From IMG/VR virus record IMGVR_UViG_3300009151_000241, positions 1 through 31,778 of that record: a DNA stretch of 31,778 nucleotides; one strand, 5' to 3'. This document shows, piece by piece, positions 4,886 to 10,765 of the stretch. The first letter of the stretch is position 1, and the number at the start of each line of letters is the position of its first letter. Both the position numbers and the translations under genes were made by a program. Below the pieces are notes generated by a model. That model saw only the letters and a list, made by a program, of their open reading frames with translations, was not told where the DNA came from and did no database searches. This DNA comes from a virus.

Positions 4886-5671
4886 TCAAGCGGGTTGCGC
4901 TTCGGGTTCAGCCTTGGCTTTGGCTGCTTTAGCAGCAGCGGCTGCAGCGGCCTTGGCTTCGCGTTCGGCTTTCAATTCGGCCTGACGTGCTGCTTTGGCT
5001 TCAGCTTTCGCCTTCACATCAGCGGAAACGTCCAGATCGTTGGCCTTCACGTAATCACGCACTGCCTCGATGGAGAGCAGACCCTTGCGAATCGCGCCAC
5101 GCATCTTGTTGCGCAGATTCATGGATTGCTGGCCCACGTTCAGGTGGCTGTAAGGATTGGCTTCCAGCGTCAACACGGCTTTGGCAGTCTGGATGACGCC
5201 ATTGGGGGTCACACCGTCGAGTGCGATGGCCAATTCATCATTGGAACGCAACTGGCCTGTAGCGGATTTCACGTACTGGCCTTCCTTCACACGGTCCGAG
5301 AGGGCCAACATGGAACCCACGTACTTGCGGCCCGAAGCGGCCAGTTCAGCCATACGTGCTTCACGAGCGGCTTTGGCAGCAGCGCGTTGTTCAGCGGTAG
5401 CGCCTTTCAGGGCTTCCTTCTCGGCTTTGGCGGCTTCGCGTTCAGCCTTGGCCTTGGCAGCAGCTTCTTGCTTTGCGGCCTTGGCAGCGATTCTGGCTTG
5501 AGCTTCGGCGGCTTTCAGTTCCTGCTTGGTGGGTTCCTTGACCGGGGTGGGGTTCAGAGTTTCGGTGGAACCGTCTTCGTGCTTGATGACGGTGTTGGCT
5601 TCCGGGGTGCCGGATTCAGCGGTAGCGGTAGATTCAGCGGCCTTAGCTGCAGAGGGTTTCGATTTTGCCAT
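4886..5671 (-). CDS. Ala/Lys-rich early protein with NPY-HLN-GQQSMNLRN domain, 261 aa
   Basis: Residues 1-115 and 215-261 are low-complexity Ala/Lys/Glu helices, like a histone-H1 tail or long coiled coil. Between them, ~118-200, is a domain with VGSMLALSDRVKEGQYVKS and ANPYSHLNVGQQSMNLRNK. The same domain occurs in the 207-residue gene at 6994-7617, so the two are paralogs. ATG at 5671 is supported by CAGGAG eight bases upstream and its own promoter at 5726-5754. The frame stays open to an upstream ATG at 5869 with its own SD, which would give a 327-residue form. Basic composition suggests DNA or RNA binding. Family not recognised. Confidence 0.8.
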   Translation of the reverse strand: MAKSKPSAAKAAESTATAESGTPEANTVIKHEDGSTETLNPTPVKEPTKQELKAAEAQARIAAKAAKQEAAAKAKAEREAAKAEKEALKGATAEQRAAAKAAREARMAELAASGRKYVGSMLALSDRVKEGQYVKSATGQLRSNDELAIALDGVTPNGVIQTAKAVLTLEANPYSHLNVGQQSMNLRNKMRGAIRKGLLSIEAVRDYVKANDLDVSADVKAKAEAKAARQAELKAEREAKAAAAAAAKAAKAKAEPEAQPA

Positions 5672-5869
5672 GGTTAGCTCCTGTGTGATGGTCGTATCGA
5701 CCGGGTTTAAAACTTGAGAACCTTGATTAGAACACGCTCTGACTTGGGTGTCAAGATTGTCTGAGGGGGTGTTCACGGACCATTCATCTTTCCGGGGGTC
5801 CGATTTCAGTATTTCAATAGCCGACGAAAGCAGTAACGCTTCGTACGGGGTCGCGGGTGAATGCTTCAT
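5672..5869 (-). other. In-frame 66-codon extension of the 261-aa gene
   Basis: ATG at 5869 overlaps the TGA of the TraR/DksA-like gene (ATGA) and follows GAGGAGAAACAGAA, a strong SD. The frame starts MKHSPATPYEALLLSSAIEI and runs without stop into the 261-residue gene. The first 30 residues look like a genuine amphipathic helix. The remaining stretch contains the promoter at 5726-5754. Either a 327-residue long form is made by read-through from the upstream genes, or the open frame is fortuitous. Confidence 0.45.
5726..5754 (-). promoter_or_regulatory. Sigma70 promoter for the 261-aa gene
   Basis: Leftward: -35 TTGACA (5749-5754), 17-base spacer, -10 TCTAAT (5726-5731). Predicted +1 near 5719, giving a leader of about 48 bases before ATG 5671 with SD CAGGAG. 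It lies inside the open frame of the long form of this gene. Confidence 0.75.
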
Positions 5870-6078
5870 TTCTGTTTCTCCTCGATGGTTCGGCATGCGG
5901 TGCATTGGCGTACTCCGGGGAGAGCCACCCGGCGTGATTCCGGGATTGGTTCACCGCAGGTCGTACAGTATTTCGCGCTCATCCCCGTATATACGTGGGC
6001 ACGGGCGGCATGAATTGCGTTTTCGGCCAGAATCGCGGCATGAATAGCCTCGTCATCCGGTGAACCGTATCCGCTCAT
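5866..6078 (-). CDS. TraR/DksA-like C4 zinc finger protein, 70 aa
   Basis: The length matches plasmid and phage TraR (about 73 residues). The N-terminal ~33 residues form a helix (DDEAIHAAILAENAIHAA), followed by the C4 finger YCTTCGEPIPESRR and GVRQCTACRTIEEKQ, with four cysteines in C-x2-C...C-x2-C. TraR/DksA proteins enter the secondary channel of RNA polymerase and alter promoter choice, mimicking DksA plus ppGpp. It probably modulates host transcription early in infection. SD is GAGGAGCTACCAG; the start overlaps the upstream stop as ATGA. The N-terminal acidic tip typical of TraR (D at residues 8-9) is present. Confidence 0.88.
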   Translation of the reverse strand: MSGYGSPDDEAIHAAILAENAIHAARAHVYTGMSAKYCTTCGEPIPESRRVALPGVRQCTACRTIEEKQK

Positions 6079-6993: not shown

Positions 6994-7617
6994 TTATTCC
7001 TCGCTGTCGTCTTCGTCTGTCTCGGTGTCCTCGAATACGTCCGATTCCACGCCTGTGACCTCTTCCACGGCCTCCCGGATCACGCCGAATCCGAATTCGC
7101 CCCGCTTGTAGGCATTCCGTACGCGATTCCGGAGGTTCATGCTCTGTTGGCCGATGTTCAGATGGGTGTAGGGGTTATGGCCGATTCCGAGGGCGATCAC
7201 ACATGCCCGGATGGTGTCTTCGGGCTTGAGGGTCCCGAATATCGTAGCGATCAGGTCGCCACAGCAGGGCTGACCATTCGCGGCCTTCTGATATTTCCCG
7301 GCCTTCAGGCGCTCCCGGAGCTTGAGCATGGGTCCTGTGTAACCCGTGGCGTCTGCTGTCTCGGATTCGGCGGCTTCGTCCTTCACGGCCTGAATCAGGT
7401 CGGCCAGATCGCCATTGGGGTCATTGATTTCTGCGCCGAGGGTCTGGACGTCTTGCAGGTACTGGCTCCGTCCGTCTGCTGCGAGGGCACGGCTGATGTT
7501 GGTCCCGTCGCTGATGTTCACCCAGCGGCCCTTGATGGCGACGATCTGGAATATCTCTCCGCCGATCACGATGGATTGGCCTGCTTCGATTGCGGGGGTG
7601 GCGTTGGTCTGTGTCAT
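6994..7617 (-). CDS. Early protein with NPY-HLN-GQQSMNLRN domain, 207 aa (paralog)
   Basis: The paralog of the 261-residue protein. Residues ~1-60 look like a small beta barrel (GQSIVIGGEIFQIVAIKGRW). Residues ~95-172 hold the shared domain, with TGPMLKLRERLKAGKYQKA and HNPYTHLNIGQQSMNLRNR. The C-terminus is acidic (EDTETDEDDSEE), the opposite charge to the basic tails of the paralog. ATG 7617 has TAATAGGATATAGCATC upstream; the frame extends to 7683 but lacks an SD there. It is the first leftward gene next to the large non-coding region, so probably the first early product. The family is not recognised. Confidence 0.8.
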   Translation of the reverse strand: MTQTNATPAIEAGQSIVIGGEIFQIVAIKGRWVNISDGTNISRALAADGRSQYLQDVQTLGAEINDPNGDLADLIQAVKDEAAESETADATGYTGPMLKLRERLKAGKYQKAANGQPCCGDLIATIFGTLKPEDTIRACVIALGIGHNPYTHLNIGQQSMNLRNRVRNAYKRGEFGFGVIREAVEEVTGVESDVFEDTETDEDDSEE

Positions 7618-7696
7618 GATGCTATATCCTATTAGGGGTGCGGGTCCGGGGGAATCCCGGCTTGCCGCTGGAGCCTCTTTCATCTCTCTGGGTTCT

Positions 7697-7725
7697 ATTA
7701 TATCACGGCGTCAATGGGTCCGTAA
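7697..7725 (-). promoter_or_regulatory. Extended -10 promoter for the first leftward gene
   Basis: Leftward GTGATATAAT: consensus -10 TATAAT (7697-7702) with TGA in front. At 17-base spacing the -35 is TTACGG (7720-7725), poor; a TTGACG lies closer (7709-7714) but at only 6 bases. Tandem palindromes at 7737-7775 lie just upstream and may bind an activator or repressor. Confidence 0.65.
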
Positions 7726-7736
7726 TCCCCTAAGAC

Positions 7737-7775
7737 ATACCGTTCGTCGGACGAGAAATACCGTTCGTCGGACGA
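7737..7775. repeat. Two tandem palindromic repeats, 21-bp period
   Basis: ATACCGTTCGTCGGACGA occurs at 7737-7754 and 7758-7775, exactly 21 bp (two helical turns) apart. Each contains TTCGTC-G-GACGAA, a 6-1-6 palindrome (one end base differs in the first copy). This is the form of a dimeric regulator's tandem operators, located upstream of the leftward promoter at 7697. Confidence 0.8.
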
Positions 7776-7870
7776 ATAGGGGGAGGGGTGCTGGCAAGAA
7801 ACGTGCCAACCCCGTCCGTGGAACAGTCTCGTGGAACAGATGTCCGGGAAGGTATCTCGGAGGCTCTCCG

Positions 7871-7897
7871 TTGACATCAGACGGGCCGGGCTATATT
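7871..7897 (+). promoter_or_regulatory. Possible promoter, short spacer
   Basis: TTGACA (7871-7876) and TATATT (7892-7897) with a 15-base spacer, two bases short of optimum. No convincing gene follows; a 41-codon ORF at 7943-8068 has AAGGAG too close to its ATG. It might make a non-coding transcript or primer RNA. Confidence 0.3.
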
Positions 7898-7943
7898 AGT
7901 ACCGGACATATCGACAGAGCGCAAGGAAGATACCAAGGAGACA

Positions 7944-7960
7944 TGCACTATCTTAGTGCA
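7944..7960. repeat. 17-bp palindrome, 7-3-7
   Basis: TGCACTA-TCT-TAGTGCA is a perfect 7-bp inverted repeat with a 3-base centre. It could be an operator or a small hairpin. Confidence 0.6.
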
Positions 7961-8007
7961 CGGGAGGGTTGGCACGAGTCTTGCCTTATCGGGCGAGGGG
8001 TCTGGAC

Positions 8008-8021
8008 GTTCCACGTGGAAC
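8008..8021. promoter_or_regulatory. parS-like palindrome GTTCCACGTGGAAC
   Basis: A perfect 14-bp palindrome flanked by C and A. It matches the bacterial chromosomal partition site parS (consensus TGTTnCACGTGnAACA) at all palindrome positions; only the first flanking T is missing. A second copy lies 140 bp to the right. Confidence 0.6.
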
Positions 8022-8147
8022 AGGGGAGCGGGGTCCGGGGGCGCGAGGCCGGGATGTTAGGACCCTGAGACGTGGACCTTGGAACACGGGAGAAGGAATA
8101 CGAACCAAGAGCGGCTCCGCGATCCAGCGTCTCTGACTTGCTAGTCC

Positions 8148-8161
8148 GTTCCACGTGAAAC
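8148..8161. promoter_or_regulatory. parS-like site GTTCCACGTGAAAC
   Basis: Second parS-like site, with right half CACGTGAAACA identical to consensus and left half CGTTCCAC. It begins exactly 140 bp after the first. Half-site heptamers CGTGGAA or TTCCACG also occur at 7817, 7830, 8507 and 8571. Confidence 0.6.
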
Positions 8162-8164
8162 ACA

Positions 8165-8464
8165 AAACCTGCTCCATACCCCTCCATTCCCCACTCCATA
8201 TATCTCTCCACTCGACGCTCTATACCCCTCCTACCCCTCCTATATCTGGGAGTGTCGGAGAGGGAGATGGGGTCCGGTGGGGGAGTAGGACGGGGGAGAC
8301 GTGACGTAGAGAGTCGCAGATGGGGTCTGAGGTAGGATGGGGGGTATCTCGGAGGGGGTCATGGTCCCACAGGCCGCGTCGGACGGGCCTCGGGTGCTAT
8401 CAGCCTGATAGCGGAGCGGGGGTGGAGGGGTATCAGAGGGGTATAGGAGGGGTGGAGGGGGTAT
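8165..8464. repeat. Polypyrimidine/polypurine tracts with inverted repeat and G4 motif
   Basis: From 8165 to 8245 the + strand is pyrimidine-rich with repeated TACCCCTCC words; from 8245 to 8461 it becomes G-rich. The segment at 8220-8243 (TATACCCCTCC... form) is nearly the reverse complement of 8441-8464. At 8418-8461 five runs of four or more G are separated by 4, 7, 7 and 4 bases, a classical G-quadruplex motif. Confidence 0.7.
8396..8412. repeat. 17-bp palindrome, 7-3-7
   Basis: GCTATCA-GCC-TGATAGC, a perfect inverted repeat with the same 7-3-7 plan as the one at 7944 but a different sequence. It lies immediately before the G-quadruplex motif. Confidence 0.6.
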
Positions 8465-8480
8465 CCCGTGTTGCGCCACT

Positions 8481-8582
8481 GCAACGTGGGGCTGGAGCAA
8501 CGTATCTTCCACGCAACGTGGCGACCGTGCAACGTGGTTCGTGTACAACGTGCCGTGAATCCAACGTTGGTTCCACGCAACG
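8481..8582. repeat. Iteron array: seven NCAACG(T) boxes every 16 bp
   Basis: The word NCAACG starts at 8481, 8497, 8513, 8529, 8545, 8561 and 8577, a spacing of exactly 16 each time. The best copies read GCAACGTGG (8481, 8513, 8529). The intervening 7-10 bases are not conserved, so this is a phased array of protein-binding sites, not a copied tandem repeat. The array ends about 260 bp before the small terminase start. Confidence 0.9.
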
Positions 8583-8806
8583 CAGGCCCCCTAGCCGTGA
8601 ATCCGCGAATGCCACCCCGGATGCCCCGACGAGCCGCGACCCGATTGGCATGCTTGGCCGGGGCCTCTGGTTACCGTCCAGTGTATAATATACCCTCCCC
8701 CTTGGTCTGCGCCTTTCGTCGAAAATATACGTCCCAATTGCCATATCTCCCGAAACAAAAAACCCGCCGAAATATAGGGGGTCTATGAACTATGTCTCTC
8801 GGGGGG

Positions 8807-8835
8807 TTGACACCCGTACCCGCACGTGCTACACT
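8807..8835 (+). promoter_or_regulatory. Late promoter, near-consensus sigma70
   Basis: TTGACA (8807-8812), 17-base spacer, TACACT (8830-8835). Seven bases separate the -10 from the ATG at 8843, so the predicted +1 falls on or next to the start codon. It shares CACGTGnTACACTC with the promoter at 13316. Confidence 0.85.
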
Positions 8836-8842
8836 CGTGGTT

Positions 8843-9346
8843 ATGTCCGAAGTACTCGATTCAACCCACACACACCTTGATATCATCACGGCGGTTGAGG
8901 CGTCTCCGGTTGCGGTAACCCAACCTGCAGAGCCTGTTTATCCCCCTTGCACTCAGGATGAAGAAACGTTCGCGCTGGCGGTAATCGAATCAGGCGGTAA
9001 TATTGCGGCTGCTTACCGTATGGCATTCGGTCAAGAGGAGCGGATGGCGTTGGCTCGTGGTAAGGAATTGCTGGCCCGTCCTCAAGTAGCACTCAAGATA
9101 CGTGACATTACGGATGCAATTTCGGATTCTGCTCTGATTTCAGTAGGCGCTCACCTGCACGAACTGGCGGAAATCCGGGATCTGGCGAAGGGCACGGGGC
9201 AACTCAAGACTGCATTGGCAGCTGAACGGGCACGTGGGGAAGCGGTTGGAATTTACCAGAAGCACGATGCGGCTGCTAAGGGTAAGACCATTGGGACCAC
9301 CAATATCCAGATTAACGTGGCGTCGAAATTCGACGCGGATATATAA
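8843..9346 (+). CDS. terS: Terminase small subunit, 167 aa
   Basis: Recognises packaging sites on phage DNA and recruits the large subunit. Residues ~38-90 show the usual helix-turn-helix-like region: DEETFALAVIESGGNIAAAY, then GKELLARPQVALKIRD. Residues ~100-140 (HLHELAEIRDLAKGTGQLKT, then AERARGEAVGIY) match the oligomerisation part of Terminase_2-like subunits. Its gene directly precedes the large subunit. ATG 8843 is chosen over 8792 because the longer frame would translate the promoter itself; no SD can precede 8843 if transcription starts where the promoter predicts, so the mRNA is probably leaderless. Confidence 0.88.
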   Translation: MSEVLDSTHTHLDIITAVEASPVAVTQPAEPVYPPCTQDEETFALAVIESGGNIAAAYRMAFGQEERMALARGKELLARPQVALKIRDITDAISDSALISVGAHLHELAEIRDLAKGTGQLKTALAAERARGEAVGIYQKHDAAAKGKTIGTTNIQINVASKFDADI

Positions 9347-9347
9347 T

Positions 9348-9425
9348 ATGCTCGGCTTCATAACAGGATTTGTAGTCGGCGCGCTTGCGATGTGTGTTTG
9401 GCTCGTGTGGAGCACATATCCATGA
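9348..9425 (+). CDS. Membrane microprotein, 25 aa
   Basis: MLGFITGFVVGALAMCVWLV then WSTYP and stop: a single hydrophobic helix with GxxxG-type spacing (residues ~3-21). It fills the 75-base gap between the terminase genes, begins one base after the terS stop and ends ATGA on the large-subunit start. No strong SD. It may be a functional membrane peptide or a coupling relay. Confidence 0.5.
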   Translation: MLGFITGFVVGALAMCVWLVWSTYP

Positions 9426-10765
9426 GCGAATTCAAGTTCACGGTGAAGCAGAATGAAGCTCAACAAATTCTGGCTGGCGGTGCAACCCATGGGATGTTAT
9501 ATGGCGGGTCACGTTCAGGAAAGACATTTCTTCACACACGGAATACCGTGTTCCGCGCTCTTAAAGCCTCAGGATCACGACACGCCATTCTCCGTTTCCG
9601 TTTCAACCACATCAAAGCCTCCATCATCCTCGACACGTTCCCGAAAGTAATGAATCTATGCTTTCCGGGCGTTGAGTATAACCTCAGTAAGACGGACTGG
9701 TACGCGACACTTCCTAATATGAGCCAGATTTGGTTCGGCGGATTGGATGACAAAGAGCGAACAGAAAAAATTCTCGGGCAAGAGTACGCGACAATGTACC
9801 TGAACGAGTGCTCCCAAATCAACAAAGAATCACGGGATATGGCGGCAACCCGGCTGGCGCAGTTGGCCAAGTCCTCGTTCGGTTCTAGCGAGTTCCTCAA
9901 ACCCCGGATGTTCTATGACTGCAACCCAACCAATAAGATGCACTGGTCGTACCGCATGTTCATCCAAAAACAAGACCCGGATACACGGATAGCACTGCCC
10001 AATCCTCAGGATTACGTCTACTGCAAGATGAATCCGGAAGACAACAAAGAGAACTTGAGCGCCACTTATTTGGACACGCTGCAAGCGCTCAGTCCTCGTC
10101 TACGTAAACGCTTCCTGCTTGGAGAATTTGCAGATGCCACACCCAATGCTCTTTTTACTGATGAGTGTATTGATATGTGGCGGGTCATTGACGGTGATAT
10201 ACCGGATATGGTCCGAATCGTGGTCGCAGTTGACCCATCAGGAGCTGGAGACACGGATAATGCAGACAATGATGCTATCGGTATCGTCGTTGTTGGCCTT
10301 GGCGTCGATGGCAATGCTTATGTTCTAGAGGATTGTACTGTCAAAGCAGGTCCGAAGACATGGGGAACGGTGGCCACGACTGCTTATGACCGCCACGAAG
10401 CTGACGCGATAGTAGGTGAAACCAATTACGGCGGTGCGATGGTGAATTTTGTGATTCAAACACAACGTCCCCGGACCCCATTTAAATGCGTCACGGCCTC
10501 TCGCGGCAAAGCAGTACGGGCAGAACCCTTTTCGGCACTCTATGAGAGTGGCAAAGTGCGTCACGTAGGCACCTTCGATGAACTCGAAGAAGAAATCGTA
10601 CACTTCTCTACACACGGATACGTGGGCACGGGTTCCCCGAACAGGGCCGACGCATTATTCTGGGGGCTGGCTGAACTGTTCCCCGGCATCGTGAAGGGTA
10701 AGAAAGAGGTCAAAGAATTCGATGACCGTGACGCTGAACATGAAATGATGGATTGGATGGGCTAA
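9422..10765 (+). CDS. terL: Terminase large subunit, 447 aa
   Basis: The packaging motor ATPase and nuclease. Walker A is GGSRSGKT (28-35), Walker B hydrophobics plus acid YLNE (126-129), followed by the coupling motif CNPTN (~172-176). The RNase H-like nuclease domain shows the first catalytic aspartate in VAVDPSGAG (D271), a second acidic site at VGETNYGG (~331-338), and a third in SPNRADALFWGLAEL (~412). The length is normal for a P22 or Terminase_3/6-type subunit. ATG 9422 overlaps the microprotein stop. An upstream in-frame start at 9392 is not needed. Confidence 0.95.
   Translation: MSEFKFTVKQNEAQQILAGGATHGMLYGGSRSGKTFLHTRNTVFRALKASGSRHAILRFRFNHIKASIILDTFPKVMNLCFPGVEYNLSKTDWYATLPNMSQIWFGGLDDKERTEKILGQEYATMYLNECSQINKESRDMAATRLAQLAKSSFGSSEFLKPRMFYDCNPTNKMHWSYRMFIQKQDPDTRIALPNPQDYVYCKMNPEDNKENLSATYLDTLQALSPRLRKRFLLGEFADATPNALFTDECIDMWRVIDGDIPDMVRIVVAVDPSGAGDTDNADNDAIGIVVVGLGVDGNAYVLEDCTVKAGPKTWGTVATTAYDRHEADAIVGETNYGGAMVNFVIQTQRPRTPFKCVTASRGKAVRAEPFSALYESGKVRHVGTFDELEEEIVHFSTHGYVGTGSPNRADALFWGLAELFPGIVKGKKEVKEFDDRDAEHEMMDWMG

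Follow-up and report, generated by a model that had tools for sequence, protein, structure and literature searches.

Which protein reads the short, evenly spaced repeats that lie just before the small terminase gene of a phage, and to what end? The window, that is, the whole stretch of DNA that was analyzed, is a 31,778-base virus record holding the incomplete genome of a freshwater-type bacterial virus. Its early genes run leftward from position 7683 and its late genes rightward from terS at 8843; a VapE-type primase-helicase gene is truncated at the right edge. The repeats occupy the gap between the two gene sets (Table 1). Clusters of the words CCCCTCC and GGAGGGG are also found across this gap (8171-8242 and 8425-8453 in the window, and in relatives), their style being kept but not their position.

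Table 1. Layout of the early/late control gap and its flanking genes; unit sequences read 5'->3'.
Feature	Position	Strand	Remark
First early gene, par2	6994-7683	-	Paralogue of 4886-5905; common GQQSMNLRN domain, no known fold
Early/late gap holding the array	7684-8842		1.16 kb; homologous gap in relatives
Perfect sigma54 -24/-12 match TGGCACGTTTCTTGC	7794-7808	-	Faces the early genes
Perfect sigma54 -24/-12 match TGGCACGAGTCTTGC	7970-7984	+	Faces rightward
parS-like palindrome GTTCCACGTGGAAC	8008-8021		
parS-like palindrome GTTCCACGTGAAAC	8148-8161		
Array of inverted-repeat units GTKG-N8-CAAC	8470-8581		Seven abutting 16-bp units
Unit 1, GTTGCGCCACTGCAAC	8470-8485		
Unit 2, GTGGGGCTGGAGCAAC	8486-8501		
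Unit 3, GTATCTTCCACGCAAC	8502-8517		
Unit 4, GTGGCGACCGTGCAAC	8518-8533		
Unit 5, GTGGTTCGTGTACAAC	8534-8549		
Unit 6, GTGCCGTGAATCCAAC	8550-8565		
Unit 7, GTTGGTTCCACGCAAC	8566-8581		
AT-rich stretch of the gap	about 8685-8790		
Sigma70-type late promoter TTGACA-17-TACACT	8807-8835	+	Immediately 5' of terS; type and place alike in relatives
Small terminase gene, terS	8843-9346	+	Weak Terminase_2 match, PHROG 51
Large terminase gene	9392-10765	+	

An earlier note, made from the sequence alone, had described seven NCAACG words at an unbroken 16-bp step about 260 bp before terS. These words do begin at 8481, 8497, 8513, 8529, 8545, 8561 and 8577, every step being 16 bp, and about 260 bp separate the array end from the terS ATG. 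The run observed in the gap is 7 long; when every 4-mer and all periods from 10 to 40 are considered, 1000 dinucleotide shuffles of the gap give runs of at most 4 (reached in 7 of them), and shuffling the whole window ten times gives none above 3. An improved parse begins 11 bases earlier, at 8470. Because GTTG opens the array and CAAC closes it, and lone copies in relatives have these ends too, the unit is GTKG-N8-CAAC rather than the 6-mer alone. Its left end is deviant in two array units (GTAT and GTGC), and the last unit is the exact reverse complement of an isolated site, GTTGCGTGGAACCAAC, in L015 and L017. Identity between units is 85% over the outer 4+4 bases and 33% over the middle 8. 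The claim that the sequence between the words is not conserved is thus borne out, and a recent slippage origin is excluded, since the copies are not alike over the whole unit. An array of RNA hairpins was also rejected, as the GTGG/CAAC ends pair incompletely and there is no Rfam match. The choice of Y or R at unit positions 5 and 12 looks independent, for example in GTTGCGTAGAAACAAC; this favours half-sites in DNA over a hairpin in RNA.

Relatives of the phage were gathered by TerL and par2 searches, and 24 homologous early/late gaps were compared. On either strand, GTKG-N8-CAAC is observed 40 times where 1.3 are expected, in 15 of the 24 phages. Removing three big arrays still leaves 24 sites, and spacers of 2-7 and 9-16 stay at background in these gaps, except spacer 3 (8 matches). 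Given this excess, a spacer that is essentially 8 only and the presence in 15 phages, the unit is genuine: an inverted-repeat site conserved among these phages. Its arrangement differs among relatives. A phased array with different middles is kept in L023, L003 and L043, and nine units occur in L049, whose TerL is unrelated to that of the window and whose early genes are the same. Elsewhere there are two GTGG-TGTCGGAA-CAAC copies 51 bp apart (L007), GTTGCGTGRAACCAAC repeated at 21-bp steps (L010, L015), two abutting units and one more (L014, L019), two units at 32 bp and one more (L082), or a single unit (L017, L069), and copy number shifts quickly from one relative to the next. The earlier note had inferred selection on phasing, with sites alternating faces every 1.5 helical turns. 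Selection on phasing is only partly borne out: units are found across the relatives at steps of 15, 16, 21, 32, 42 and 51 bp, and because the unit is carried at 21-bp and other steps, exact 1.5-turn phasing is no requirement. A pair 112 bp apart in L186 and single sites in L078, L080 and L081 lie within coding genes and were taken as chance. In the Synechococcus phages whose TerL is nearest, the stretch examined contains no sites. A similar 16-bp element, GTTAGYGCYCACTAAC, replaces or accompanies the unit in L013, L019, L066 and L072. This second inverted repeat, of like geometry and place, also occurs in the gap of L007 and in L425 and L451.

Sites of this class are found well outside the group. 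The exact form GTTGCGTGRAACCAAC has matches in 44 viral stretches, where single matches are at the chance level that we estimate and multi-copy ones occur in unrelated phages. Tandem GTTGYRTNNAYRCAAC-like copies occur in at least 115 further viral loci, against about 2 expected by our estimate for a pattern with free positions. Together with the five found before, these loci form 55 clusters among the matches listed, 52 of them usable and independent. A seemingly distinct paired element, GTTGCCTTGAAGCAAC-15 bp-GTTGCCTTGACTCAAC, is seen in L384, L390, L393, L401 and others; it was excluded from the protein scan, yet is still within the 52 clusters. Tandem sites are absent from 373 cellular genomes of two classes, a sample too small to prove phage specificity, and the cellular matches listed from genome_contigs include no phased CAACG arrays of the GTKG-N8-CAAC type with a free middle. 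A search of the open literature for six exact forms of the unit found no paper. As the same site class occurs in many otherwise unrelated phages, the array unit looks like a widespread site, so far undescribed, at which a DNA-binding protein docks.

The kind of protein is suggested by the build of the sites and by what surrounds them. Inverted ends, a free middle, abutting or spaced copies and a quick change in copy number fit dimer sites of a sequence-specific regulator. An exact sigma54 match (TGGCACGNNNNTTGC) lies in the gap of nearly all phages with the site there, mostly facing the early genes, and in most such phages at least one site is upstream of an exact match. Our preferred reading, still a tentative one, is that the array works as an operator/enhancer cluster. 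Its regulator would be a dimer, probably encoded by the host, and its target is most likely early transcription from sigma54 promoters. Each 16-bp unit would be read by one dimer through its GTKG and CAAC ends, the half-site centres lying about one helical turn apart and the middle remaining mostly free. Several dimers of a single regulator, probably supplied by the host, would sit next to one another on the array and influence the gap's early promoters of the sigma54 type, as at the upstream activating sequence (UAS) of an NtrC-family enhancer-binding protein. Dimer binding, the host origin of the protein and sigma54 promoter activation are what we infer here rather than what was observed. 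A host enhancer-binding protein is the leading guess because sigma54 matches are nearby and no phage activator was found: neither the sigma54-activator domain (PF00158) nor ParB_N (PF02195) was detected in 22 phage records, with positive controls. Several of these records are fragments, so the absence of activator and ParB_N genes from the phages is unproven.

The sigma54 promoter matches in the same gap, and the inverted-repeat sites upstream of the leftward match in the window and of a match in most relatives with sites, count for the enhancer reading. Distance counts against it in the window, where 660-770 bp separate the array from the leftward match, beyond the usual enhancer distance of about 80-200 bp; in L005, L072, L074, L430, L464 and L475 it is about 100-250 bp. 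Also against it, sites lie downstream of a sigma54 match in L006, L014 and L049, and six relatives have matches without sites (L066, L073, L076, L081, L176, L177). In the independent tandem-site phages among the matches listed, the density of strong sigma54 matches within 400 bp of sites is 8.7 times that found elsewhere (11 in 44.5 kb versus 13 in 459 kb, p 2e-6), an enrichment that is suggestive only, because near-site regions are noncoding and this by itself enriches promoter matches. Their orientation is mixed, 6 upstream and 5 downstream. Perfect matches with enhancer geometry, 150-240 bp from sites, occur in L430, L464 and L475. Further points against are that only 7 of the 16 promoter-like matches near the tandem sites of other phages have the site upstream, and that L084, L341 and L448 carry the sites in the interval from HNH to terS, a place where one would not expect an early promoter. 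Perfect TGGCACGNNNNTTGC matches are present in the gaps of nearly all relatives, among them L005, L006, L007, L010, L014, L015, L017, L019, L023, L049, L066, L072 and others. Phage sigma54 promoters seem to be hardly described in the open literature, and the gap suggests, contrary to common expectation, that a whole phage group relies on host sigma54 promoters to start its early genes.

Among known systems, the UAS of NtrC-family proteins, such as the LuxO, GcsR and CbrB sites, resembles the array in that tandem inverted-repeat sites share a gap with -24/-12 promoters, and the TTGYR half-sites of the array are reminiscent of TTGCA, the half-site of the LuxO type. The array differs in its seven to nine abutting sites, its free middle and a promoter distance that reaches 770 bp, as well as in the lack of an activator gene in the phage records searched (22, several of them fragments). 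We know of no site with this spacing. Another likeness is to the BkaR-type TetR operator, a 16-bp GTTA(N)T(N4)A(N)TAAC (PMC3920632), which has the same inverted-repeat length and GTT/AAC ends. Some relatives' gaps carry GTTAGYGCTCACTAAC, similar to the BkaR operator, whereas the array has G/C instead of A/T end bases and a tandem abutting arrangement. In the BkaR paper GTTAGTGAGCGCTAAC is listed as unbound by BkaR. The GTTAGYGCYCACTAAC of relatives' gaps resembles a TetR-type operator (PMC3920632).

The earlier note had read the array as protein-bound and, from its position, as probably recognized by the small terminase. The first part of that idea survives: the array looks functional, a set of protein-binding sites and no product of slippage, and in unrelated phages its site class is enriched near terminase genes. 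Recognition by TerS, however, is unlikely, because the array does not go with TerS type. TerS is 67% identical to that of the window in L023 and 26% in L049, both with an array, and 63% in L006 and 58% in L013, neither with a tandem one, which led to the rejection of TerS as sole explanation. The sites also lie beside HK97/P27, Nu1/GpA, Sf6-like and T7-like terminases, several families being confirmed when the adjacent proteins were compared with PHROG and Pfam, and one specificity common to the TerS of all these types is improbable. Since sites cluster by terminases of such unrelated kinds, a packaging-region role for another protein was kept, though it is unlikely too. The array would then be a packaging-start or genome-end element, not itself the TerS recognition element, at which a bound phage or host protein helps to cut or mark the end of the DNA or to protect it; IHF at lambda cos is a model for such aid in DNA-end processing. 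Like cos/pac subsites of small terminase and IHF at lambda cos, the array consists of repeated short sites just 5' of terS. Among the matches listed, TerL is within 3 kb in 23 of 52 clusters, where about 18% are expected from geometry (binomial p 2e-5), and in 19 of the 52 the sites precede it by 0-2 kb; the comparison with controls is weaker (6/26; Fisher p 0.056), this set being small and including some similar elements (L028, L042, L046). In L430, L395 and L464 the sites are 570-1050 bp downstream of TerL, the place of the terminal repeat in T7-like phages, and this TerL is T7-like at least in L430 and L464. In the cos-type L084, L341 and L448, the interval between HNH and terS is the expected place of cos. 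Yet TerS relatives of L084 lack sites though a conserved cos-like block is kept, the examined stretches of LUZ100 and S2B, T7-like isolates whose terminal repeats are annotated, contain no site of this kind, and about half of the loci among the matches listed are distant from any terminase.

Replication-origin iterons, the main alternative in the earlier note, are less probable still. Here an initiator, the VapE-type primase-helicase or another early protein, would bind the units and melt the AT-rich stretch. Plasmid and lambda-type iterons are likewise fixed-length short repeats adjoining AT-rich DNA, those of lambda being inverted repeats too, and the array has such a neighbour within the main noncoding gap. 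TTATCCACA DnaA boxes are somewhat enriched near sites in other phages (5 in 34 kb versus 14 in 469 kb, p 0.008). The array departs from iterons in its unconserved middle and the lack of an adjacent initiator gene, and neither the gap of the window nor eleven related gaps hold a DnaA box. VapE and the main early genes are common to the compared relatives with or without sites. These shared genes and the missing DnaA boxes make an origin less likely; no GC-skew turning point lies at the gap, GC skew being an uninformative marker here. It is highly doubtful that the gap acts as a decoy, gathering sites for host proteins (ParB, sigma54 and the reader of the 16-bp site) and titrating these proteins on multiplying phage DNA. 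The parS-like and sigma54 sites fit such a role, as do the failure to find a phage ParB_N or sigma54-activator domain in the 22 records, several of them fragments, and the fast change in unit number; but the sigma54 matches are positioned and directed like real promoters, and seven or nine sites per genome are few for titration. Separately, TTATCCACA boxes lie 35-165 bp from tandem GTTG-N8-CAAC in L430, L464, L470 and L474, two of which have a T7-like TerL.

Both window palindromes match the parS consensus GTTYCACGTGRAAC, and many relatives have one to three parS-like palindromes. Such GTTYCACGTGRAAC sites lie in or near the gap in L005, L006, L008, L010, L013, L014, L015, L049, L069, L072, L074 and L082. 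Beyond the enhancer reading of the window, a wider proposal may hold, although we regard it with some doubt: tandem GTTGYRTNNAYRCAAC would be an undescribed cis-element of unrelated phages at the genome-end and early/late control junction, its reader being a host protein that is conserved across many hosts, and the group of the window would also exploit host sigma54 and host ParB while encoding neither activator nor ParB. If so, a single protein would encounter many phages at one common place on their DNA, giving a general handle on gene control, packaging or defence.

Among phage proteins, par1/par2 are a possible reader of the unit. They were set aside as a candidate for their unknown fold, with weak PDB matches only, and because relatives with a close par2 lack a tandem array. 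The paralogous early proteins at 4886-5905 and 6994-7683, both on the minus strand, share the GQQSMNLRN domain, and two copies are also present in L049, L006, L010, L013, L014, L023 and L007. They belong to no Pfam family and give no confident fold match. INPHARED contains no par2 relatives, and par1/par2 were not found in the cellular genomes of genome_contigs. The window contig breaks between 31778 and 1, at the PurZ/DpoZ place, so that its own copies are not visible. In the sister genome G010 (L201, 3788-8873), PurZ (NF038379), DpoZ (NF038380) and a YfbR-like HD phosphohydrolase lie between VapE and the early genes, and this predicted PurZ/DpoZ set is that of a 2-aminoadenine (Z-genome) phage group.
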